Shown: positions 38,778-50,564 of the stretch, piece after piece
How the letters are laid out: each line of letters begins with the position of its first letter
How positions within the stretch are numbered: the stretch's first letter is position 1
Assembly: GCA_947632025.1 (NCBI GenBank)
Contig: CANRNN010000005.1
Location: 1-64,000, forward strand
DNA: 64,000 nucleotides
DNA from: an uncultured Clostridia bacterium
GTDB taxonomy: Bacteria > Bacillota > Clostridia > Oscillospirales > Ruminococcaceae
Reading direction: 5' to 3'
Position numbers and translations under genes: made by a program
The notes under the pieces: model-generated
What the model saw: the letters and a program-made list of their open reading frames with translations, nothing else
What the model was told of the DNA's origin: nothing
Databases searched by the model: none

Positions 38778-38799
38778 AAGCCTCTGTCTTAATAAAAAA

Positions 38800-38830
38800 T
38801 ATCCCCCGAAAAATCGGGGGATACGCTGTT
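38800..38830 (+). terminator. Bidirectional terminator between the aminopeptidase gene and telA
   Basis: TATCCCCCGA and TCGGGGGATA form a perfect 10-bp stem with an AAAA loop. A-rich sequence on the left and T-rich on the right suit both directions. Confidence 0.85.
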
Positions 38831-38845: not shown

Positions 38846-40009
38846 TTACGCTTTCATACGTTTTTTGTAGTCCGCCGTGATAGCTTCCAGCTTCTTGGAA
38901 TCCTCTATTCTCTTTGCGCGTGATTCGTCCTGTATCCGCTGTACTTCGTCGATTCCGCTTACAATGGTCTGCCATGTCTGTTCAAGCGTTTCTACCTTAA
39001 TGGATGAATTTGCCGACATAGACGCTATCATCTTTGACTGCTCGACGGTGTTGTTTGCGTTCTTTATAAGCATTTCGTTGGTCTTTTCGTCGAGAGCGCT
39101 TAACGATTCCGCCTGTATTCTCTGACGTTTCAGCATAATCGCCTGCGCCAGCGACTGCTTGAAAACAGGCATAGTTATGATAAACGCCGAGTTTATCTTT
39201 CTCACGAGATTCAGATTTGAGTATTCCATAGTTTTCAGCATCGGAACAGTCTGAAGCGCGACGTTCTGTGCGACTTTCAGGTCCATTACGCGCTGGTCGA
39301 GGATCTCGCGCATCTGCTGTAAATTTGAAAGATCCATACGGACCGTGCCGTCTTCGGGACTTTCCTCGGCTTTTTTCTTGTATTCCTCGATATATTGGTC
39401 AAGCTCCTTTACGCCCTGTTCGCCTGCCATGATATACTTCACAAGCTGCTGATAATATCCGATATTCGCGTCATACATATTGTCGAGCTTGGTATTTGCC
39501 GCTTCTATCTCGGATTCGTACTGTTTCAGCTGGACGTATATCTTGTCTATTTCCTTGCCCATGGTGTCGTACTTGTTGAGTATCTTCTCGATATTTTTCT
39601 TGAGCTTGCCGAAAAATCCGGGTTTGTCCTCAAGCTCCTTCGCGTCGAATTGATCCATAATAGCCGCGAGATGTTTCAGCATAACGCCCGTGTCGTTTAT
39701 CTGCTGGATACTCATGGAATTCAGCACCTGATCGGAAGCCTGCGAGATCTGGTCGGCTGCTTCCGCGCCGAATTTCACGATAGTCGAGGAATCGTTGACG
39801 TTGATGGTGGAAACCAGCTTGTCGATCTCCTCGCTGTTTGCGAGCTGCTGCTTTATCTCGTCGGTCTTGACCATGATGTTGAAGCTCTTTGCTTCTTCAA
39901 GTTTTGCTTCGAGAGCCGCGTCGGAAGTCTTTACCGCCGCGGAAGTTTCTACCTCAGCCGACGTCTGCGCTGTTGCCTGTGCCGCTCCGGGAGTGAATTG
40001 AAGTCCCAT
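38846..40009 (-). CDS. telA: TelA-family toxic anion resistance protein
   Basis: The 387-residue protein belongs to the TelA/KlaA family (B. subtilis YceH), linked to tellurite and other stress resistance. It is almost wholly helical and probably coiled coil from about 35 to 385. Family blocks such as SIQQINDTGVMLKHL, FGKLKKNIEKIL and the NLNLVRKINSAFIITMPVFK segment are present. The N-terminal 30 residues are Ala/Thr/Ser-rich. No membrane span is seen. AAAGGAAA precedes the ATG. It ends the Ter-type operon, 35 nt after yceG, the same yceG-yceH order as in B. subtilis. Confidence 0.93.
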   Translation of the reverse strand: MGLQFTPGAAQATAQTSAEVETSAAVKTSDAALEAKLEEAKSFNIMVKTDEIKQQLANSEEIDKLVSTINVNDSSTIVKFGAEAADQISQASDQVLNSMSIQQINDTGVMLKHLAAIMDQFDAKELEDKPGFFGKLKKNIEKILNKYDTMGKEIDKIYVQLKQYESEIEAANTKLDNMYDANIGYYQQLVKYIMAGEQGVKELDQYIEEYKKKAEESPEDGTVRMDLSNLQQMREILDQRVMDLKVAQNVALQTVPMLKTMEYSNLNLVRKINSAFIITMPVFKQSLAQAIMLKRQRIQAESLSALDEKTNEMLIKNANNTVEQSKMIASMSANSSIKVETLEQTWQTIVSGIDEVQRIQDESRAKRIEDSKKLEAITADYKKRMKA

Positions 40010-40044
40010 AATAATGATTTCCTTTCATACTTCGGCAAAATGCC

Positions 40045-42222
40045 TTAATGCTTTCCGAACAGCTTTCCGAAAAAACCGCCGTTCTTGTCCTCAGAGGGTA
40101 TCTTGAATTTCGGAACCTCTGTGTTGTAGAGAAACTGGTTCATGATATGCTCCTCGAAAGCGTCGCCCGAAACGAACGTTTCAAGGTTTTTATAGCCCGT
40201 AGGCGTATAAATGAGAACATCGAAGCCTATGAGGTTGCACAGCACGATCCTCACGCAATCCTCCACGGTGAAAGTATCCTCCACCGCGTCGATAATAACA
40301 AGCTTCGGTATAGTTTTCGTAAAATCGAACCGCTGAACTATCTGTAAAAATTCGCGGTCAGGCGTCATTCCGTAATGTATCACGCTGCACATAAGCTCGT
40401 CGCCGTTCAGTTTCAGAAACTTTGATGAAACCGCTTCCTGAAGCTTGTAGAACAGCATATCCTGTATTCTGTCCGGCAGGAAGCTGAACTTGTTTAGCGT
40501 CGAGGCTTTCAGCTTTTCGGTATCTATCTCGCCGTTTCTGTAGAACTGCCTGTATGCCGACAGATCCGTGCTGCTTCCGGAGTTTTGGGCATTTTTCTGC
40601 TTGATATACAGTATCGTTTCCGGAGTGAGCTTCTGCCGCACATCGTCCCAGTATCGGTTCAGATCGCCGTTTTCGACGCCGCTTATTTTCGCGAAAATAT
40701 TCGGCACCGTCACCAGATTCCCCGACACGGCGAATCCCTGACGGAACTTCGCTTCCTGCTTCCACAGTATAGCTATCTCCTCGAACGTCGTTTTAAGCGT
40801 AAGCGACATACTGTTCGGAAACTGAAAGCTTCTGAATATTCCCGTTTCGCCGTTGTACAGCATCGTATCAAGCTCTCTTTCGGCGGAATACGCGACCGTC
40901 GCGGCTTTCATCTTGACGGCTTTTGTCGGATACGAGCCGCTTTCCTTCGTCTGCGGAAGCTCGAATATCTGCATTCTCCCGTCGGGATTTTTCCCGACCG
41001 CAAGCTCCAGATTCGACTTATTCGGCGTGATATATACCACGTCGAATCCGCACCGCGACATAAAATTCAGAAACAGCAGCTCCGACTGCGATATATCCCC
41101 GTAATACAGCACCACGGGTATATCCTCGTATTTCACGGAATATTTTCTTGCCTGAGTGCAGCGGTACAGCCACGTTATCATCTTGTTAGCGTAATTTATG
41201 ATGACCGTCTGATTCGGCGTGTCAAGTCCCGAAAGCAGCTCTTTCAGGTTTCTCTGCGCGAGAGCCGTTCTCGTTCTGTCGCCTCGGAGATCTATCGTCA
41301 TTGCGAGGGAATCCACGCGTTCGGCGGTGCTTGAACCCCTCGGCGTTCCAAGCGCCTTTACTTCCTCGGCGTTGGGATTTTCAAGCGGTTTTTCTATAAA
41401 AATGAGCTGCTTTTTTTTCCCCGCGAAATTTTCCTTGAATTTCACGAGCATATTCGTGTACACAGCCTCGTCCTCGCAGCCCACAAGCGCCGCGCAGTAT
41501 ACGGGTATCTCCCCGTCCTCCGTGAACACTCCGCCGTCCTCTATGACGCGTTTTTGCCTGTCTTTCAGGATATCCTCGAACATTCCCGCTGCCGTTGTCG
41601 AAAGCCGCTTTACAAGTCCTTTCACGCGCTCGCCCTCGGCACGCATCTCCGAAAGCTGCGATTCCCGCGAGAGGTCTATTTTCCCGAAATCCACCTGTAC
41701 CGGCGCTGTGAATTTTCCGCTCTTCACGGCGACCCTGTCCCTGAACGCGAATTTATTAAAATCGGTATCCAGCCCCCAGCTTACCAGCGTTATCTTCAAG
41801 CCCGCCGCCTGAAGCATACACAGGAAATACAGCTCTCTCAGGCTTGCCGGACCGATATATACCGCCTTTACGGGACGCGCCGACATATATTTCATAAGCC
41901 AGCACATCAGCACGAAGTAGGTGTTTTTCTTGTTGACCCCGCATTCCTCCACAGCCTTTGCCATGACCTCCGCGACCGCTGCCGTATCGCACGGCGTATT
42001 CGTGTCGCGCACCCAGCCGTCAAGGGCACGTTTTATGTCGTCGGAGCTGTCAAAGCTTGCCGCTGTATACGCGCTTGCTCTTGCTATCTCGTCCGTCGAG
42101 CCCAGCGGCAGTTTTTCCTTGAAGAAAAGCCCGTTTTTGCTCGACGCAGCGAATTCTCCGACAAGAAATCCGCGAAAGCTTTCGGGATTATCATACCCGA
42201 CATACCTCGCAAACTCCTGCAT
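40045..42222 (-). CDS. yceG: YceG-like protein of the Ter stress cluster
   Basis: The 725-residue protein resembles YceG, described as a putative component of a biosynthetic module in Ter systems; its chemistry is unknown. I see three similar units: hydrophobic strand, then ...ELYFLCMLQAAGLKITLVS (about 117-150), ...ELLFLNFMSRCGFDVVYITP (about 370-403), and VEDCVRIVLCNLIGFDVLIYTP (about 640-680), suggesting repeated alpha/beta domains. The end FKIPSEDKNGGFFGKLFGKH is amphipathic. The ATG at 42222 follows AAGGAGG. It sits between the TerD fusion gene and telA. Confidence 0.85.
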   Translation of the reverse strand: MQEFARYVGYDNPESFRGFLVGEFAASSKNGLFFKEKLPLGSTDEIARASAYTAASFDSSDDIKRALDGWVRDTNTPCDTAAVAEVMAKAVEECGVNKKNTYFVLMCWLMKYMSARPVKAVYIGPASLRELYFLCMLQAAGLKITLVSWGLDTDFNKFAFRDRVAVKSGKFTAPVQVDFGKIDLSRESQLSEMRAEGERVKGLVKRLSTTAAGMFEDILKDRQKRVIEDGGVFTEDGEIPVYCAALVGCEDEAVYTNMLVKFKENFAGKKKQLIFIEKPLENPNAEEVKALGTPRGSSTAERVDSLAMTIDLRGDRTRTALAQRNLKELLSGLDTPNQTVIINYANKMITWLYRCTQARKYSVKYEDIPVVLYYGDISQSELLFLNFMSRCGFDVVYITPNKSNLELAVGKNPDGRMQIFELPQTKESGSYPTKAVKMKAATVAYSAERELDTMLYNGETGIFRSFQFPNSMSLTLKTTFEEIAILWKQEAKFRQGFAVSGNLVTVPNIFAKISGVENGDLNRYWDDVRQKLTPETILYIKQKNAQNSGSSTDLSAYRQFYRNGEIDTEKLKASTLNKFSFLPDRIQDMLFYKLQEAVSSKFLKLNGDELMCSVIHYGMTPDREFLQIVQRFDFTKTIPKLVIIDAVEDTFTVEDCVRIVLCNLIGFDVLIYTPTGYKNLETFVSGDAFEEHIMNQFLYNTEVPKFKIPSEDKNGGFFGKLFGKH

Positions 42223-42278
42223 TTCCGATGCCTCCTTAATTTGTGGATATTTCAGAGCGGGACAGTGACCGTCGGCTA

Positions 42279-43481
42279 TTATTCCGTGACCTCCAGCCCG
42301 AAGCTCCTGCAAAGACGGGCGATACCGTTATTGTAGCCTGCGCCTACCGCCGATATCCGCCATTCTCCCTTATAAAGGTAGAATTCCATAGCCACCGCCG
42401 CTGTTTCGGACGAAAGCCCGTCCATTTCAAAAGATACCCGCTCCGTGTCCGTGCAAAGCGACACCCTCGGACGCTCGACATAAGCGAAGCAGTTTTCGCT
42501 TCCCGAAGCGCTCTGCGGCTCGGCGTAGACCGCGTATGCGAGCGTTATTTTCTCCACGCGGCAGTCCGCCGCCGCAAGGTTAATTTCTATATGCCCGTCC
42601 TGCGGGAAGTATCTCACGGCGCCGTCCTCCGAACGCTCGTTCCCGAAGAAAACGAATCCCTTTTCGTTGACGGCGCGCCCGTCCTTATCGAGCATAAAAA
42701 CGTAAGGGTCTATATCCATTTTGCGGTTCTTTCTGCACTCGAACCACACCGAAAATTCCGTTCCAACATACGGCGCCGCGGACGTTCTCATTCCGCGTGT
42801 CATAGTAAGCTTTGCGGAATTTTCCGCTTTCGGCGCGGTCATTGAAATAACGTCCGTCAGGCTCTCCGCGCTCGGCGCAGTGTAAATTTCCTTATCCCGG
42901 ACGGGCTTATCTGCTGCCGGTCTGCCCGTGACGCTTACCCGCCTTATAAATTTTGACTTGAAAAGCGCTTCGGCATACAGAAGCGTCCTCGCCGAAATTC
43001 CCGAAACCGAAAGCGTTATTTCGTTTCTTCCAGCCGAAAGCACATTCGGCGAGAATCTCACCTCGTTAAGCGAACATTCTATCGTAGTTTTTTCGGGAAC
43101 GTTCACGGTCAGCCTGAACGTGTTTTCCTCGTCCGCGCATATATTTCCGAGAGCGATCGTCCTCGGCACGTCGAAATTCCCGTCCTCCGAGCCGAATCCT
43201 CTCACCCTGCCCAACACTTCCACTTCGGACACCGCCGCGGGACATTCCGCTTCTATCGCGACATCGGAAACGTCCCCCTCGGTAATTTCCACGCGCAGTC
43301 CCTCAAGCGTGACGTTCGGGGCTTTCACATACACCGCGGCTCCGTTTTTCGCATATATGGTCGTGTTTTTCCCGACCAGACGAAGCGGACGGTCAATAAC
43401 GACAGGACCCTCAAATTCTCCGGAGGGAAGTACTGCCGTACCGCCCCCGGCGGCAGAAGAAATTATATCCCGAAGTTCCAC
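42279..43481 (-). CDS. TerD-domain protein with N-terminal beta-helix-like domain
   Basis: The 400-residue protein has an N-terminal stretch (about 20-110) of short beta repeats (VVIDRPLRLVG, TTIYAKNGAAVYV, PNVTLEGLRVEI) that resemble a right-handed beta-helix. A middle beta-rich region follows, and a C-terminal TerD domain (about 255-400) ends in GYNNGIARLCRSFGLEV. Compared with the neighbouring canonical TerD, the [13 protein letters not shown] calcium loop is replaced by FPQDGHIEINLAA, so calcium binding there is probably lost. GTG is the start, after AGGAGG. The fusion may recognise a cell-surface or polymeric target; this is inference. Confidence 0.8.
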   Translation of the reverse strand: MELRDIISSAAGGGTAVLPSGEFEGPVVIDRPLRLVGKNTTIYAKNGAAVYVKAPNVTLEGLRVEITEGDVSDVAIEAECPAAVSEVEVLGRVRGFGSEDGNFDVPRTIALGNICADEENTFRLTVNVPEKTTIECSLNEVRFSPNVLSAGRNEITLSVSGISARTLLYAEALFKSKFIRRVSVTGRPAADKPVRDKEIYTAPSAESLTDVISMTAPKAENSAKLTMTRGMRTSAAPYVGTEFSVWFECRKNRKMDIDPYVFMLDKDGRAVNEKGFVFFGNERSEDGAVRYFPQDGHIEINLAAADCRVEKITLAYAVYAEPQSASGSENCFAYVERPRVSLCTDTERVSFEMDGLSSETAAVAMEFYLYKGEWRISAVGAGYNNGIARLCRSFGLEVTE

Positions 43482-43506
43482 ACGTCCGCCTCCTGCTCAA
43501 AAATAA

Positions 43507-44094
43507 TTATCCGACGTTCACGCCGTAAGAGCGGCACAGCGCTTCAAGTCCGCCCTGATAGCCGCTTGCCACGGCGTTGAATTTCCACTCGCCGTTGTGA
43601 CGGTAAATTTCGCACACGACAAGCGCCGTTTCAATGGAAAATTCCTCCACCAGATCAAACCGCAGTTCTTCTTCTCCGTTTTCGTCGTCGGGATTGTCGA
43701 TCTTCACCACGCGAACATAGGAGTTTGACACCTGCCCGAAATTCTGGTTTCTCTGAGCCGCCTCGAAGATAGTTACCGTAACCGCTATCTTCTGTATTTC
43801 CTGCGGTATTTTTGTGAAATCAATGATAATTGCCTCGTCGTCGCCTTCGCCTTCGCCCGTGCGGTTATCGCCCGTGTGAACGACAGCTCCGTCACGCGCG
43901 GAAAGGTTGTTGTAGAACACGAAATCCTCGTCGCGCAGTACTTTTCCGTTCGCTCCGAGCAGGAAAACGCACGCGTCAAGGTCGAAATCATTTCCTCCGT
44001 CATAGCGGTTCACGTCCCAGCCTAAGCCTATTCTCGCCATTGTCATTGATTTGTCAAGGCTTACCCGCTGACCTTTTGAAAGACTTACTGCCAT
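43507..44094 (-). CDS. terD: TerD-family calcium-binding stress protein
   Basis: The 195-residue protein is a canonical TerD/TerE/YceD member: LSKGQRVSL start, [47 protein letters not shown] (calcium ligands), [13 protein letters not shown], and the [15 protein letters not shown] end. These beta-sandwich proteins bind Ca2+ and are tied to tellurite, oxidative and envelope stress. AGGAGG precedes the ATG. It lies 32 nt after the calcium-ATPase gene, which suggests calcium handling as the shared theme of the operon. Confidence 0.96.
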
Positions 44095-44125
44095 ATCTGT
44101 TCCTCCTAAAAATTATTCAATAAAA

Positions 44126-46891
44126 TTACTGTTCTTTTTTGCCCGCGCCCGTTATTGCTTTTCTCAGCAGGTCAACGGGGATTATCGAAATTGCGGGAAC
44201 AAGTACCACAAGCCACTCTACGGGATTCAGTCCCCAGCCCGAAAGTATCCCGCGTCCGAGGTAGGTCATAAGGATCTGCACCACGGCGATGATTCCGAAT
44301 ACCGTAAGGAATCCCTTGTTCTTGCCGAGATTGTCGAAGAGATTTACGCGGTCGGTGCGTGCGTTGAACGCATTGAACACCGCAATGAAGATGAAGAACG
44401 CGAAATATGCCGTGTGAAGAATAGCGTGCGGTTCGTTTTCGATGTGGATATCACGCAGAAGCCCCCATTGTTCGAGGTAACTCAGCGAATTTACCGCTCC
44501 CTCCGCGGGTTTCGGGAACGAACCGAGAATCAGCATAGCCAGCGACAGCACGAATGTCCAGCCCGCTCCGACGATAATTTCCGACATCATAGCCTTGCTT
44601 ATTATCGGCTCGGTACGGCGCTTGGGCTTTTCACGCATAAAGCGTGCAAGAGGCGGCTCTCCGCCGAATGCCAGTGCCGCGAGCGTATCCATTACGAGGT
44701 TCACCCAGAGTATCTGAATGACGGAAAGCGGATTTGCCACGCCGATAAGCGGGCAGATAAACGAAATAAGCACCGCCGCCACGTTTATAGTCAGCTGGAA
44801 CACGATAAATTTCCTTATGGAGTTGAAAATCGTGCGCCCGTAGAGTATCGCGCGGTCGATAGAGTTGAAGTTGTCGTCGAGGATAACGATATCGGACGCT
44901 TCTTTCGCGACTTCCGTACCGCCGCCCATTGCGAAGCCCACGTCGGCTTTTTTGAGGGCAGGGGAGTCGTTCACGCCGTCGCCCGTCATACCCGCCACAA
45001 GGTCGAGTTCCTGCGCAAGCCGCACCAGACGGCTCTTGTCCGTAGGCAGCGCTCTTGCGATAACGCGGATATCCTTTATCTTCGCCTTTATCTCGTCGTC
45101 GGACATTTTCGCAAGCTCGTCGGACGTCAGCATAAGATTTGTGTTTTCGTCGTCGATAAGTCCCGCTTCTTTCGCTATCGCAACTGCGGTTTCGCGGCGG
45201 TCGCCCGTTATCATTACTACCTGAACGCCCGCGCCCTTTACTTCCTTAATCGCGGTCACGGATTCGGGACGGACCTCGTCGCGTATTCCGAGGCACCCGA
45301 CAAGCGTCCAGTTATTGCCGTCGGGCAGTGAATCCTCGCCTAAAGCGTCCTCGCTCGTCGCTAATGCAAGCACACGGATAGCGCGGTTTGCAAGTTCGTC
45401 TATTTTCGCGTTGAGTTTCGCCATATCGAACGGCTGCTTTTCGCCGTTCATATCGTAGTAGTGGGAGCATCTCTGAAGTATCTTTTCGGGAGCGCCCTTA
45501 ATAAGCGAGAGATTGTATTCTCCCTTGATCTGCGTCGCGGAGTATTTGTTTGTAGAGTTGAACGGGATATTTCCGACAGCCGAAACATTCGCGCCCGACG
45601 GGCAGTCCACCGCATACGCGAGAATAGCGCGCTCCGTCGCGTTTCCGCCGAGTACGCGTCTGTCCTTGCCCTCTCCGCTTATCATAGAAAGCGTGTTCTT
45701 GTGAATGGACAGCGCGAGAATATCTTTGAGTTTTCCCTTCAGGTCGTTGATTGTCTTGTATTCGGAAACATCGCCCATAATGAAGTTTATCGCTTCGAGC
45801 TTGCCTTTGGTGATAGTTCCCGTCTTATCGGAGAAAAGGATATTGAGCGAGCCTGCCGTTTCGATACCCGCGACCTTGCGCACCAATACGTTATCCTTAA
45901 GCATCTTGCCCATATTCTGCGCGGAAACTATCGCTATCATAAGCGGCAGACCCTCCGGCACCGCCATAACTATGATAATGACCGCAAGCATTACCGCTTC
46001 GATTATCGCTTTCACCAGTGCCGCCCACGCGAAAACTCCGTCAGGCGCGAGAAATGCCATAGGCTGGAAATTCGTATCGAACAGAATTGTCTTTGCAAGC
46101 ATTGCGACAGCTATCGCCACGCCGCCGATATAGCCGAATTTCGATATGCCGTTCGCGAGTTTTCCGAGCTTTACCTTAAGAGGAGTATCGCGGTCGTCGT
46201 CCGTCTGCAGTTCGCTTGCTATCTTTCCGTAGACCGACTTGTCGCCGACAACGGTAACCTGCATAACGGCGTTTCCGGAGCATACCACCGCTCCGCGGTA
46301 TACCTTATATTCGCTGTCGAAATCGGTATTTTCGTCGGTATCTTTCCACCCGTCGGGAATTGCGTGCTTTTTCGCCTCGCGGCTCTCACCGTTCAGCACC
46401 GACTGGTCGACTTTTATATCCCCGTCAATGATTATGCCGTCGGCGGGTATCTTATCTCCCGACTGGAGCAGTATAGCGTCCCCGACAACTATATCGTTTA
46501 TCGCGACTTCGGCTATAACGTTGTTTCTGTACACTTTGCACATGATCCTTGAAGCTTCTTCCTGAAGCTTCTGGAACGCGTTTTCATTCCTGAATTCCGA
46601 GAACGTCGAAACCAGCGTCGCCAAACATATAGCCACGAAAATTCCGAGCGGCTCGTACCATTCGGGCGCGCCCTCGATAATAGGGTTCCCGTCCGAGCCT
46701 TTTACAAGCCCCAGAATCGCCAGCACAACGTTTATCAGCAGCGCGACGATAAGAATTTTTATCATCGGGTCGCCGAGGTTGCTTTTCAGCTTATCCCAGA
46801 AGCTCTCGTGAGCCTGCTCCGTCATGGAGTTGTCGCCGAATTTCTGTTTGCTTTCGGCAACTTCCTTGTCTGTAAGACCGAATTGTTTCAT
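44126..46891 (-). CDS. Calcium-transporting P-type ATPase (P2B/PMCA-like)
   Basis: The 921-residue protein is a complete P2-type ATPase. It has an A-domain NGESREAKK (TGES equivalent), the M4 motif VPEGLPL (P2B signature rather than SERCA's PEGLP with extra acids), the phosphorylation site SDKTGTIT, KGAPE in the nucleotide domain, TGDRRETA, and TGDGVNDSPAL. Ten membrane helices are expected. It likely exports Ca2+ from the cytoplasm. It stands where some Ter clusters have the membrane protein TerC, between the kinase and terD. A heptanucleotide repeat lies just upstream. Confidence 0.93.
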   Translation of the reverse strand: MKQFGLTDKEVAESKQKFGDNSMTEQAHESFWDKLKSNLGDPMIKILIVALLINVVLAILGLVKGSDGNPIIEGAPEWYEPLGIFVAICLATLVSTFSEFRNENAFQKLQEEASRIMCKVYRNNVIAEVAINDIVVGDAILLQSGDKIPADGIIIDGDIKVDQSVLNGESREAKKHAIPDGWKDTDENTDFDSEYKVYRGAVVCSGNAVMQVTVVGDKSVYGKIASELQTDDDRDTPLKVKLGKLANGISKFGYIGGVAIAVAMLAKTILFDTNFQPMAFLAPDGVFAWAALVKAIIEAVMLAVIIIVMAVPEGLPLMIAIVSAQNMGKMLKDNVLVRKVAGIETAGSLNILFSDKTGTITKGKLEAINFIMGDVSEYKTINDLKGKLKDILALSIHKNTLSMISGEGKDRRVLGGNATERAILAYAVDCPSGANVSAVGNIPFNSTNKYSATQIKGEYNLSLIKGAPEKILQRCSHYYDMNGEKQPFDMAKLNAKIDELANRAIRVLALATSEDALGEDSLPDGNNWTLVGCLGIRDEVRPESVTAIKEVKGAGVQVVMITGDRRETAVAIAKEAGLIDDENTNLMLTSDELAKMSDDEIKAKIKDIRVIARALPTDKSRLVRLAQELDLVAGMTGDGVNDSPALKKADVGFAMGGGTEVAKEASDIVILDDNFNSIDRAILYGRTIFNSIRKFIVFQLTINVAAVLISFICPLIGVANPLSVIQILWVNLVMDTLAALAFGGEPPLARFMREKPKRRTEPIISKAMMSEIIVGAGWTFVLSLAMLILGSFPKPAEGAVNSLSYLEQWGLLRDIHIENEPHAILHTAYFAFFIFIAVFNAFNARTDRVNLFDNLGKNKGFLTVFGIIAVVQILMTYLGRGILSGWGLNPVEWLVVLVPAISIIPVDLLRKAITGAGKKEQ

Positions 46892-46960
46892 TTGCTTTTT
46901 ATCCTTTCGTAAAATCGGAATCTATTCCGAGAATTGCCTTATGACCGAATGACCGAAAAA

Positions 46961-46990
46961 TGCCTGCTGCCTGCTGCCTGCTGCCTGCTG
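46961..46990. repeat. Heptanucleotide tandem repeat TGCCTGC
   Basis: Four perfect TGCCTGC units followed by a partial TGTCCTGC lie in the 104-nt gap between the kinase stop and the P-type ATPase start. A GAATGACCGA-type duplication lies beside them (about 46942-46957). Confidence 0.8.
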
Positions 46991-46995
46991 TCCTG

Positions 46996-48474
46996 CTAGG
47001 ACTTGTTTTGATTTACGGAAACCTCGCACAACAGCCCGTTGTCTTTTCCGCTCATTCTGAAAAGCGCTGCGTCTTTAAGTTCCACCGCGCTCCCTTTTGG
47101 GACGAGCCGTCCCGACGGCGAGGTCATACCTTCCGCCCCGTGATTCACGAGCAGCCACATTCCCTTATACTGTGCTATATAAGCCCGCATTTCGGGCGAA
47201 GCTTTTTCGTCGTTGTGGACGTTCGAGTAGATGTGCCAGTCGAACAGCGGCATTCTGTCGTAAACTATGATGTCGCTTTTTTCACGGTAAACTCCGTGCC
47301 GTCCGCGCATTTCGCTTTTAAGTCCCAGACGTATTATTTTTTCACGGACTCTTGTTTTGCAGAACGGGCAGACGGGGTCGTTCTCGTCGCGCACTATGAA
47401 CCATCGCTTTTCGCACTGCGGATTCGCGCACGGATAAAGTCTGTCCCACGCTTTTAGAAGTTCCGTTTCCCATTCCATAGCCGTAGGTCTTTCGGCGGGG
47501 TCGTGAAGCCCGTCCACAAACGCCCTTATAAACAGCCGTTCAAGCCCCTTTGACAGAGAACCTATCGTCACGTCAAGGTCGGGCGGTCTGTTTGAGGTAT
47601 CGTTCGGGTCCTCGATAAAGGTCGCCTTTTCTCCCAGAGCGAGAAAGTCGTCCTCTTCGGCGCTGTCGGCGCTGTATATCTTCGGACCTATCAGCGGGTG
47701 ACGGAAGAAAAGGTATTCATAGATAAGCACCGGCAGTGCGTGAAGGTCGGTCAGCACGCTCGGCAGTATCCGTCCTCTGTCGCTGCCCATAGTCGCCAGC
47801 ACCTCCGGCGCTATATATCCCCTTGTTCCCACCACTTCGGGAGGATACTTGTTCGGCACGACAAGCGAATCTATATCTATTACCACCGCCGAACCTGTTT
47901 TCGGGTCTATAAGCACGTTGTTGCACGAAAGATCCGAGTGTGCAAGCCCCGCCTGATGCATTCTCCGTATAGTCCTCGAAAGTCCTATCGCGGTTTTCAG
48001 CATCGTCCTGAAATCTCCCCGTTCGGCAGGGGAGAGGTACTTTCTGTTTTTCCCCGTGAACCAGTTTGATTTTTTGTCCTTGCCCTTAAGGTTCAGTACC
48101 GCCGAAGCCCCCGCGTCGAAAAAGAAGTTGTCTGGATACGCGGGACACACTATCCCGAATTCGGGCTGCCTTACTATCGCGACAGGCCAGCAGAAGCGCT
48201 GCCTGAAATATTCGGCGGTTTTTTGGGTATTTCCGAGAGCGCCCCCGTCCTCCTCGGCTATTGTCGGATTATAGATACCCACTATGGTGCGTATCCGGTC
48301 CTGAAGCCTTGGGTCGAGAGCGTCCTCCTGCCTGTTAAAAAACTGCACCGCGAACTTCTTGTCGGGGGTGAAATAGGTATGTTTCATACCCCCTCGCGGA
48401 GCGTTCGCGTCGTATATATATTGTATCGTGTCGCCGCTTTCTAAAACGGCTGTCAGCGTTTCTCCGCTCTGCAT
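46996..48474 (-). CDS. Serine/threonine kinase-like protein with zinc ribbon (TerY-P triad type)
   Basis: The 492-residue protein has a kinase domain (about 15-330): catalytic loop HSDLSCNN (179-186), metal site DIDS (200-203), and VVGTRGYIAPEV in place of the activation segment APE. The beta-3 motif reads FAVQFF, with Gln where the ATP-anchoring Lys is expected; Lys39/Lys40 may substitute. A zinc ribbon follows (CANPQCEKRW...CPFC). The last 110 residues are a beta-rich domain that may recognise phospho-targets. It lies between the PP2C phosphatase and the calcium ATPase. Kinase, PP2C and vWA genes together match the triad described for Ter systems. Confidence 0.87.
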   Translation of the reverse strand: MQSGETLTAVLESGDTIQYIYDANAPRGGMKHTYFTPDKKFAVQFFNRQEDALDPRLQDRIRTIVGIYNPTIAEEDGGALGNTQKTAEYFRQRFCWPVAIVRQPEFGIVCPAYPDNFFFDAGASAVLNLKGKDKKSNWFTGKNRKYLSPAERGDFRTMLKTAIGLSRTIRRMHQAGLAHSDLSCNNVLIDPKTGSAVVIDIDSLVVPNKYPPEVVGTRGYIAPEVLATMGSDRGRILPSVLTDLHALPVLIYEYLFFRHPLIGPKIYSADSAEEDDFLALGEKATFIEDPNDTSNRPPDLDVTIGSLSKGLERLFIRAFVDGLHDPAERPTAMEWETELLKAWDRLYPCANPQCEKRWFIVRDENDPVCPFCKTRVREKIIRLGLKSEMRGRHGVYREKSDIIVYDRMPLFDWHIYSNVHNDEKASPEMRAYIAQYKGMWLLVNHGAEGMTSPSGRLVPKGSAVELKDAALFRMSGKDNGLLCEVSVNQNKS

Positions 48475-48504
48475 TACGGTTTCCTCTGTTTTTGATTTGA
48501 TTTT

Positions 48505-49818
48505 TCAGTAGTTTAGTTTTATGATAACGAGCGTCCTGTCGTCGAAGCTCCCGCGCTCGTTGTAGTTGTCGAGCCACACGCCCAGCCGCTCTTCCGGAGT
48601 TTCTCCCACATTCATTCCGAAAGCCTCCAGCGAGTGGCAGTACAGCGCCTCTTTTTTGTTCCATAGTGCGTTTACGTTTTTTTCGGACTTGTCGTTCGCC
48701 AGCAGCTGTTTTGAATATTGCAGCGCCACGCTTTTCTTGCTTAAGGAAACCGATCTGAACCGTATCGGCGCGGGATCTTCCGGAGATATCCCTTCTTTCC
48801 CGCAGGAATAATCCAGTATCCCGTTAAGCTGAAGGTCTATGAAAAGCCGTTTCATCATCACGGCGGGGAAGTAGTCGTCCGCCACTCCGTCCGACATAAG
48901 GAACACCGTATCCGAGCTTCCCCGTGATATCTTTGTTTTCTTTGCCAGAGCGTCGTCGGAGGTCGTTTTTTCGGAAAGAAAATCCGTTTCTCCCGAAAAA
49001 GCCCCGCTGTCCGCGTCGCCCATTATTTTAAGGCACGCGTCGGCGTCTGCCTTGCTGTCCAGTGCGCAGACGCACCCGTCGCCTATCTGTACGCACGCCA
49101 CAAACGTCTGCGCCGTGCCGTTCACCTCCACGGGAACAGCCACAGCCGCCAGAAACGTCGACGCCAGATCGCCTATCTCAGGCGCTCTTCCCAAAGCCGC
49201 CTTGTAATTCTCGTCCTCAATGATTCCGGCAAGCTCCTGCTGCTGCGCACAGAACGCCTTTTTCGCCGCGTCGTGGAGTATATTCGCTATTTTTCCGCAC
49301 GCCGACAGAAATTCCTCCGAGGAAAGCTCCGCGCACAGTCCCTTTTTAAGCTCGCCTGAAAATTCCTCCGCAAGACGCTCTTTCATAAATCCCACGGCGG
49401 TTTCGCAGCTAACCCGCGAACCTATCCTCGACAGTTTTCTCGAACCTGCCCCGTCGCATACTGCCGCGACAAAGCAGTCGTCCGTCACGGCGCTCTCGAA
49501 ATAATCGTCGCAGTTAGAGCCCTCGTGCTTGTGTTTTTTTCCTCTCACCCTTGCTCCGATTATCTCTCCCTTTTGGGATTTAGAGTGCTTTACATGAAGC
49601 TCAGAGTGCATTTCTGTTCCGTCGTCGGTTATTTCCTTATACTGCCACATGGAAGCGGTATGTTCCATAACTTCCATATCCGAGAGTTTTTCGGCGGGCG
49701 GTATATTTGCGGCTTCGGAATTTGCCGTCGTTTTGTTTTTTTCGTCGTGCAGCTCGTCTATCGTCACCGTAAGCTGCAATTCGTCCGCGTCGCCCTGCGG
49801 TTTAACGGTATTATCCAT
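48505..49818 (-). CDS. PP2C-type protein phosphatase
   Basis: The 437-residue protein has a variable N-terminus (1-90) and a PP2C domain with the metal-binding motifs GSNCDDYF, VCDGAGS, VQIGDG, MSDGVADD and FDDRTLVI. It should remove phosphate from Ser/Thr of targets of the neighbouring kinase. No membrane span is seen. AAGGAG precedes the ATG. It lies 21 nt after terY and 30 nt before the kinase gene, consistent with a kinase-phosphatase-vWA module. Confidence 0.9.
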   Translation of the reverse strand: MDNTVKPQGDADELQLTVTIDELHDEKNKTTANSEAANIPPAEKLSDMEVMEHTASMWQYKEITDDGTEMHSELHVKHSKSQKGEIIGARVRGKKHKHEGSNCDDYFESAVTDDCFVAAVCDGAGSRKLSRIGSRVSCETAVGFMKERLAEEFSGELKKGLCAELSSEEFLSACGKIANILHDAAKKAFCAQQQELAGIIEDENYKAALGRAPEIGDLASTFLAAVAVPVEVNGTAQTFVACVQIGDGCVCALDSKADADACLKIMGDADSGAFSGETDFLSEKTTSDDALAKKTKISRGSSDTVFLMSDGVADDYFPAVMMKRLFIDLQLNGILDYSCGKEGISPEDPAPIRFRSVSLSKKSVALQYSKQLLANDKSEKNVNALWNKKEALYCHSLEAFGMNVGETPEERLGVWLDNYNERGSFDDRTLVIIKLNY

Positions 49819-49839
49819 TCAAAACTCCTTAAAAACGCC

Positions 49840-50481
49840 TTACGGCACGATAACGAATCCCTGCGGAGGCGGCGGCAGCTGTACGGCTTCTCCGGGCTTT
49901 GCGTCTATGCTCTTTGAGGAAGCCTTTACCGAGCTTGACACCCACGCGAAGAACTGCGCCATATCTCCCGCCGTGAGATTATTCATCATAAGCACGTTGT
50001 TGGTTATTTTCTTAAGGACGTTGGCGTTTGCGTTAGCGCCCGCGCCGCACGCTATGATATTTCCGACGGAAACTTTTTTAATTGCTTCTATGCCGTCGTC
50101 GAGGTTATCGGTCGGCGCTCCGTCCGTCATAATGAACACAAGCGGCTTCCAGTCGCCTTTCTGCTCGGCGGTGGAGGTGCGCACCTCGTTTTTCACGCAG
50201 TCCGCCAGCACGGTAAGCGCCCCGCCCAGTGCCGTAGCGCCTCCTGCCTGCAAGGCGGGCTCTTTGAACACCATAAGCTCCGTCAGCGGAGTAAGCTGTC
50301 TTGCGGAACTGTCGAACGTGATTATTGACAGGAACGCCGTTTCCAGTGCCTGCGGGTCGCCCTTAAGCTCCGACACCAGTGTTTTTATTCCTTGTTTTAC
50401 AGCCTCTATCGGCTCTCCTGCCATAGACCCGCTGCAGTCCAGCAGCAGATACACCGGCAATCTTCTTATATAATCCGACAT
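49840..50481 (-). CDS. TerY-like von Willebrand A domain protein
   Basis: The 213-residue protein is a single vWA domain. The metal-dependent adhesion site is DCSGS (15-19), with Thr in GGATALGG and Asp in MTDGAPTD. The tail ends in VQLPPPPQGFVIVP. TerY proteins of this kind are cytosolic and are thought to scaffold phosphorylation-dependent Ter complexes. The ATG at 50481 follows GGAGG; a start 13 residues earlier lacks a site. It is the first gene of the eight-gene operon, with a full consensus promoter upstream. Confidence 0.92.
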   Translation of the reverse strand: MSDYIRRLPVYLLLDCSGSMAGEPIEAVKQGIKTLVSELKGDPQALETAFLSIITFDSSARQLTPLTELMVFKEPALQAGGATALGGALTVLADCVKNEVRTSTAEQKGDWKPLVFIMTDGAPTDNLDDGIEAIKKVSVGNIIACGAGANANANVLKKITNNVLMMNNLTAGDMAQFFAWVSSSVKASSKSIDAKPGEAVQLPPPPQGFVIVP

Positions 50482-50535
50482 TTTGTGTACCTCCGAAAAA
50501 AATAAAATAACTCCGTCCAAACTTTCTCACTATAT

Positions 50536-50564
50536 ATTATAAAACAATTTTCATATTTTGTCAA
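50536..50564 (-). promoter_or_regulatory. Promoter of the Ter-type operon
   Basis: TTGACA (50559-50564) and TATAAT (50536-50541), 17-nt spacer, minus strand. It is the only strong promoter I see for the eight genes down to telA. Confidence 0.85.

Follow-up and report, generated by a model that had tools for sequence, protein, structure and literature searches.

We analyzed a window of 64,000 nucleotides from an uncultured Clostridia bacterium (GenBank assembly GCA_947632025.1, contig CANRNN010000005.1, positions 1 to 64,000 of the forward strand). Our focus is a single block of eight minus-strand open reading frames at positions 38846-50481, which encodes the proteins of a Ter-type stress system together with a calcium ATPase. 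Ter systems have been linked with resistance to tellurite, to phages, and to colicins, and their actual role has long been unclear. The features of the block are listed here in the order in which they would be transcribed.

50536..50564, minus strand: sigma-70-type promoter TTGACA-N17-TATAAT, exact match
49840..50481, minus strand: vWA protein, TerY-like (Pfam VWA, E 1.8e-15)
48505..49818, minus strand: PP2C phosphatase (Pfam PP2C_2, E 9.6e-31)
46996..48474, minus strand: protein kinase with a C-terminal zinc ribbon and a further C-terminal stretch (Pfam Pkinase, E 2.9e-10)
44126..46891, minus strand: P2B (PMCA-type) Ca2+ ATPase (TIGR01517, 587 bits against a curated cut-off of 507)
43507..44094, minus strand: TerD (Pfam TerD, E 3.7e-76)
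42279..43481, minus strand: fusion protein with a weakly beta-helix-like N-terminus, an unassigned middle part, and a degenerate TerD domain at residues 251-394 (Pfam)
40045..42222, minus strand: YceG (Pfam YceG_bac, E 2.1e-60)
38846..40009, minus strand: TelA (Pfam TelA, E 6.3e-97)
38799..38824, minus strand: intrinsic terminator, an 11-pair stem followed by TTTTTATT; the stem is found on both strands

A first-pass annotation of the sequence had described eight co-directional genes with gaps of 21-104 nucleotides, and both the coordinates and the domain calls by Pfam and NCBIfam agree with the gene names it gave. With the start codons chosen here, the intergenic gaps measure 21, 30, 104, 31, 25, 56, and 35 nucleotides. 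The start of YceG is most likely the ATG at 42222, despite a frame opened by TTG at 42312, because most homologues align from about that point. The promoter and the strong terminator proposed for the operon are also present, the former as an exact match at 50564-50536, and the latter as an 11-pair stem at 38824-38799, between the operon and a convergent aminopeptidase-like gene. This is the sole 12/12 promoter match in the scanned stretch, with none other inside the operon. The exact pattern precedes the vWA gene by at most 260 nucleotides in 29 of 30 regions, these being the window and 28 of the 29 related loci. It is commonplace in the genome, with 235 copies in 2.36 Mb against 0 for a reversed-pattern control, which points to ordinary vegetative transcription and rules out a special stress promoter. 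Since the pattern is ordinary and no second 12/12 match occurs within the operon, an ordinary vegetative promoter serving all eight genes as one is plausible.

The three first genes resemble a TerY-P signalling triad, which is defined, in the available text of PMC11090510, by a Ser/Thr-type kinase with a C-terminal zinc ribbon, and which accompanies restriction systems. In a motif alignment, the vWA protein retains the metal ion-dependent adhesion site (MIDAS) motif DCSGS. The catalytic motifs H-S/T-DLSxNN and D-I/L-D of the kinase and the four cysteines of its zinc ribbon are retained in 8 aligned relatives; the variants are a Ser to Thr change in the catalytic loop of genome G273 and DLD for DID in genome G334. 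By sequence, the window encodes the three components of such a triad: a vWA protein with a MIDAS motif, a PP2C phosphatase, and a kinase fused to a C-terminal zinc ribbon. The best plasmid-borne kinases are about 40-41% identical to that of the window. As a separate observation, the vWA protein of G273 (L155/L198) reads DCSAS where others show D-C/T-SGS.

The nearest solved proteins to the pump are ACA8, PMCA1/2, and LMCA1. Its PEGLP and DKTGT motifs, and the Asn and Asp of M5/M6 that we take to be the Ca2+ ligands of P2B pumps, are retained in 11 of the 11 copies compared. Judged by its sequence, the ATPase is a PMCA-type Ca2+ pump, with transport predicted. It is like ACA8, PMCA1, and the Listeria pump LMCA1 in family score and in its catalytic and Ca2+-site motifs. 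It differs from them in lacking an extended regulatory tail, with an alignment to ACA8 that covers residues 50-911 of 921, and in having a gene tied to TerD.

TerD proteins bind Ca2+, and the window TerD retains the acidic loop GEGDDE, presumably the Ca2+-binding site, aligned with the same loop in its best structural match, the solved TerD 2kxt/2kxv. The adjoining gene had been annotated as a beta-helix/TerD fusion. The beta-helix part is a tentative assignment, since it relies on weak matches to NosD: residues 3-71 match the NCBIfam NosD model at E 1.7e-8 with 33.5 bits against a cut-off of 300, and the solved NosD matches at E 0.041. The N-terminal and middle profiles of the fusion also match proteins of the families f78 and f77. 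In its TerD domain, the acidic loop is lost in the window, f117, and f78 proteins, and the f77 protein retains an altered loop. A sequence search found no solved relatives of YceG and TelA. The TerD domain, together with adjoining TelA and YceG genes on the same strand of the operon, places the locus among Ter-type systems in the broad sense, as the first-pass annotation had proposed.

We read 34 congeneric loci directly for the pump and its neighbours. The pump is present in 29, truly absent from 2, and cut off by a contig end in 3 (29 of 31 decidable loci). In the 2 loci without the pump, the kinase is directly followed by the fusion gene and the neighbouring TerD is gone too; four pump-bearing loci have no adjoining TerD and have kept the pump. 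The kinase was found in all 26 loci long enough to include it. At the genome level, 37 of 41 congeneric genomes have this pump, 3 have a pump of about 280 bits instead, and 1 (73% complete) has neither. None of the 37 also carries the class of about 280 bits, in a search complete to an E of about 1e-13. Of 37 congeneric genomes, ours included, 36 carry YceG, against 2 of 24 from other families of the order. The loci frequently have flanking GtrA, ClpC-like, and aminopeptidase-like genes in common, and therefore look like a core chromosomal locus. These congeneric loci bear out the proposal that a single conserved block unites the pump with the triad and with the core of TerD, YceG, and TelA. 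Describing the ATPase as dedicated to it is doubtful, because the window pump is the sole match to the PMCA-type family in its own genome at E 1e-60 or better and because three congeners without it have, at a different place in the genome, a different pump of the same broad family. The named relatives are labelled uncultured Clostridia or Oscillospiraceae, and many come from animal guts (deer, and rabbits if 'Lapin' is so read).

To place the pump in a wider context, we used it to search an evenly drawn sample of 398 genomes from the phylum, scoring two candidates per genome with a reporting limit of E 1e-95. The scores split in two groups: 14 genomes besides our own with at least 450 bits, which we treat as one subfamily, and 47 whose best match has at most 413 bits. 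TerD was then sought in all 62 pump genomes. It lies at most 0.9 kb from the pump in 9 of the 14 genomes of this subfamily (G273, G099, G334, G059, G262, G364, G355, G048, and G238), against 1 of the 47 with other pumps (Fisher p ~1e-6), with G432, whose pump sits at the edge of one contig and whose TerD is on a different one, counted as not linked. The same comparison by family gives 6 of 10 against 1 of 28 (p 0.0005), and the adjacency was seen in families f78, f70, f77, f24, f117, and f13. Incidental adjacency of the ATPase, for which a neighbourhood check had been suggested, is ruled out by this linkage and by the conservation in the genus. The link between pump and TerD is strong, yet not exclusive. 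We also considered an exclusive clade of Ter pumps and rejected it: the 42-row tree on which it was based omitted members without TerD, and adding five of these gave a mixed clade.

Several observations touch on this linkage. A Fusobacteriaceae locus (L143) has a pump upstream of YceG-TelA-TerD, and a protein that joins a YceG domain to a trypsin-like peptidase is encoded between this pump and the Ter genes (L143:4779-6242). Beside the pump of G059 (L199:4025-5365), one protein continues from a TerD domain into a vWA-like stretch (DNSGSM), this second part being read from sequence only. Among the 12 matches listed of 14 to phage records, one reaches subfamily identity, an unannotated fragment of 4.5 kb, and a single scan in which the pump was searched against viral contigs gave no match. 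That fragment (L210, MT840059.1) comes from the human gut, is labelled phage, and is possibly bacterial; besides this pump subfamily, it has two TerD-like frames on the pump's strand, recognized by eye.

Our genome has no match to TerC, and the operon does not have the composition of a classical ter operon (terZABCDE type). We sought TerC in 30 genomes; in the control genome of Bacillus subtilis, TerD, YceG, and TerC were all detected. TerC is found in none of the 11 genomes with a Ter-linked pump (G000, G273, G238, G262, G364, G334, G059, G048, G355, G099, and, with another pump subfamily, G232), against 10 of 12 sampled genomes that have YceG and lack a linked pump (Fisher p 7e-5). The first group includes four genomes without YceG, and among YceG-bearing genomes only, the counts are 0 of 7 against 10 of 12 (p 0.0007). 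The two YceG genomes with neither a linked pump nor TerC are G384 and G432. In 7 of the 10 TerC-bearing genomes (G063, G423, G200, G187, G345, G415, and G269), TerC lies at most 0.7 kb from TerD or YceG. Among the pump genomes without TerD, G385 has TerC, and G450, G054, and G346 have none.

Considering the gene set, its conservation, the recurrent adjacency of TerD and pump, the lack of a TerC match, and the intact active-site and Ca2+-site motifs, we lean towards reading the locus as a Ter-type stress operon of a TerC-less kind, in which the PMCA-type Ca2+ ATPase beside TerD would be the membrane ion-transport partner that replaces TerC. Published work also speaks for this reading: TerC-TerD has been named the minimal functional unit of tellurite resistance in Escherichia coli (PMC12054061, available text), and the available parts of two other sources tie the TerC family to Mn2+ export (PMC12096827) and its superfamily to Ca2+ (PMC4608589). 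A broader and more tentative proposal, which we consider possible, is that a Ca2+-pumping P2B ATPase has assumed the ion transport of TerC in one branch of Ter systems. The conserved role of the Ter membrane core would then be to control Ca2+ or another divalent ion across the membrane, with TerD as the Ca2+ sensor and the triad as the switch. Under the reading that we favour, the mechanism would most likely be that of a membrane-associated stress system. A disturbance of the membrane or of metal balance, such as a leak, a toxin, a phage, or an antimicrobial, would let Ca2+ flow in, and TerD would bind the incoming ions by its acidic loop. TerD, the fusion, YceG, and TelA would then form a membrane assembly that includes the pump, the kinase and PP2C would toggle it on and off together with the vWA protein, and the pump would bring cytosolic Ca2+ back to its low level. 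The fusion, having lost the acidic loop, may act as a scaffold or adaptor and not as a Ca2+ binder. The idea of the first-pass annotation that local calcium may be both signal and output is strengthened by the repeated pairing of pump and TerD and by the lack of TerC, though the pump may instead be a general Ca2+ pump of the cell. Ter operons with a recognizable ATP-driven calcium pump beside TerD offer an entry point with a substrate of known kind and established assays. Were the pump to act in place of TerC, they could settle which metal matters in Ter systems.

A number of results weigh against the replacement of TerC by the pump. Four of the 14 subfamily genomes (G450, G054, G346, and G385) lack any match to TerD, and TerD-less pumps interleave with TerD-linked ones on the tree (5 changes). 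Around a subfamily member on a spirochaete plasmid, the 22 kb displayed (about 12 kb on the longer side) include no gene annotated as TerD. The single linked case among the 47, G232, carries another pump subfamily, so the type of pump is not fixed. The congeners G017, G027, and G454 have neither TerC nor, genome-wide, this pump, their other broad-family pump lying elsewhere and scoring below the family cut-off, and the Ter loci of two of these three (L066 and L067) retain the triad, the fusion, YceG, and TelA. G384, too, has Ter genes while lacking both TerC and a linked pump. In the TerD-less G385, the pump and TerC adjoin, 27 nucleotides apart (L196:9125-12472). Counted by family, the TerC contrast falls to 0 of 8 against 6 of 8 (p 0.007), or 0 of 6 against 6 of 8 for YceG-bearing families (p 0.01). 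The TerC group and the linked-pump group have no family in common, and lineage may therefore explain part or all of the TerC pattern, which is a serious caveat.

Taken further, this caveat gives an account in which the absence of TerC is a trait of the lineage and the pump an added module that replaces nothing. The lack of a common family is in its favour, as are G384, G432, and the three congeners, which have neither TerC nor a demonstrably linked pump of the subfamily. The pump, however, sits next to TerD, and this is the same neighbourhood in which 7 of the 10 Ter genomes with TerC have it, adjoining TerD or YceG. We regard this account as somewhat doubtful. It is compatible with another, in which the ATPase is a housekeeping Ca2+ pump that sits in the operon for steady co-expression and is mechanistically uncoupled from the Ter proteins. 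Such a role would suit a pump that is the only match to its type in the genome at E 1e-60 or better, that is found in 37 of 41 congeners and never together with the class of about 280 bits that three others have instead (one having neither), whose operon has a promoter of commonplace type, and whose subfamily occurs in four genomes without TerD. Plain hitch-hiking, though, would not make pump and TerD go missing together within the genus, and their adjacency recurs in six other families with differing gene orders. A mechanistically uncoupled housekeeping pump seems unlikely.

The locus could also be chiefly an anti-phage system built around the TerY-P triad. According to the available text of PMC10889362, TerY-P triads protect Pseudomonas aeruginosa from some phages, and the association of triads with restriction systems (PMC11090510, available text) points the same way. 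Yet PADLOC gave weak matches for the kinase and nothing for the other seven proteins, and we rejected a defence island as the nature of the locus on these weak, kinase-only matches. Pfam finds no nuclease domain in the operon. YceG is present in 36 of 37 sampled congeners, often between the same chromosomal neighbours, unlike what is seen in a mobile defence island. We consider a chiefly anti-phage role quite improbable.

The best reading of the operon is that it belongs to the Ter systems already known, with a pump in the place of TerC as a variant. The yceCDEFGH operon of B. subtilis has genes of the TerD, YceG, and TelA type and is not known to include a triad or a pump. Unlike the window operon, it has TerC (MeeF, formerly YceF; PMC12096827, available text). 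A plasmid of Azospirillum ramasamyi (NZ_CP029830.1) resembles the window in having TerD paralogues, vWA proteins, a PP2C, and a kinase that is 41% identical over 97% of the query, and in the same locus it also has phosphoribosyltransferase, StiP, and aldolase genes. It differs by having TerB, and TerC among its TerD genes, and the 27 kb displayed include no gene annotated as a P-type ATPase. The pump, YceG, and TelA belong to the window operon, whose genome has no TerC match. Jug-phages are reported to carry both TerD genes and a Ca2+ ATPase, and the available text of PMC12363816 does not place them together. Among the papers listed by our literature searches, we found none on a TerD-linked Ca2+ ATPase locus; Anantharaman and others (2012) may already mention such pumps.

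The combination of triad, core, and pump had been presented as special to this operon, and this did not hold. Close relatives of the window kinase (41-62% identity) occur in 5 other sampled genomes, and all 5 have the pump and the fusion in the same locus. In f117 (G238, G262, and G364), the order is vWA-PP2C-kinase-pump-TerD-226-residue protein-TerD-TerD-fusion, the 226-residue protein of G238 being AIM24 (Pfam), with YceG and TelA not labelled in the stretch read. In G273 (f78), it is YceG-TelA-vWA-AIM24-kinase-pump-TerD-TerD-TerD-fusion, followed in the same locus by genes for C-C bond lyase, PRTase/TRSP, StiP/PELOTA, and HAD proteins. This locus is like the window in its YceG, TelA, vWA, kinase (54% identical), pump (64% identical), TerD, and fusion, and unlike it in gene order, AIM24, the lack of a PP2C label or match in the stretch read, and the biosynthetic module. 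G334 (f77) has the pump, fusion, TerD, triad, and a PRTase in one locus. These comparable combinations rule out an operon unique to the genus, and the window operon is therefore one arrangement of a wider set. Weak partial matches to the kinase (27-30%) were found in three further genomes, of which one, G330, was read over 15 kb and shows triad-like genes with no pump or TerD labelled. The notion that the triad is always accompanied by the pump thus holds for close kinases only, with G330 as the counter-case.

Our genome has a second Ter operon on another contig (C4, L071:4809-10458), with genes for TerD, C-C bond lyase, ATPgrasp_Ter, PRTase/TRSP, StiP/PELOTA, and HAD proteins. A nucleoside-like metabolite has been proposed as the product of Ter biosynthetic systems, and the second operon would make such a compound. 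Of the 41 congeneric genomes, ours included, 30 have StiP. The second operon lies just downstream of SpoVA-type sporulation genes.

In another gut lineage (L112-L129), 10 of 18 loci have a row of dynamin, M48 peptidase-like, dynamin, YceG, and TelA genes. One further locus has part of the second dynamin gene, and the other 7, which include short contigs, gave no match. A search with the window TerD as query detected no TerD in these loci. The row of dynamin, YceG, and TelA fits a membrane role. A tRNA gene lies at positions 5-77 of the window, on the minus strand.

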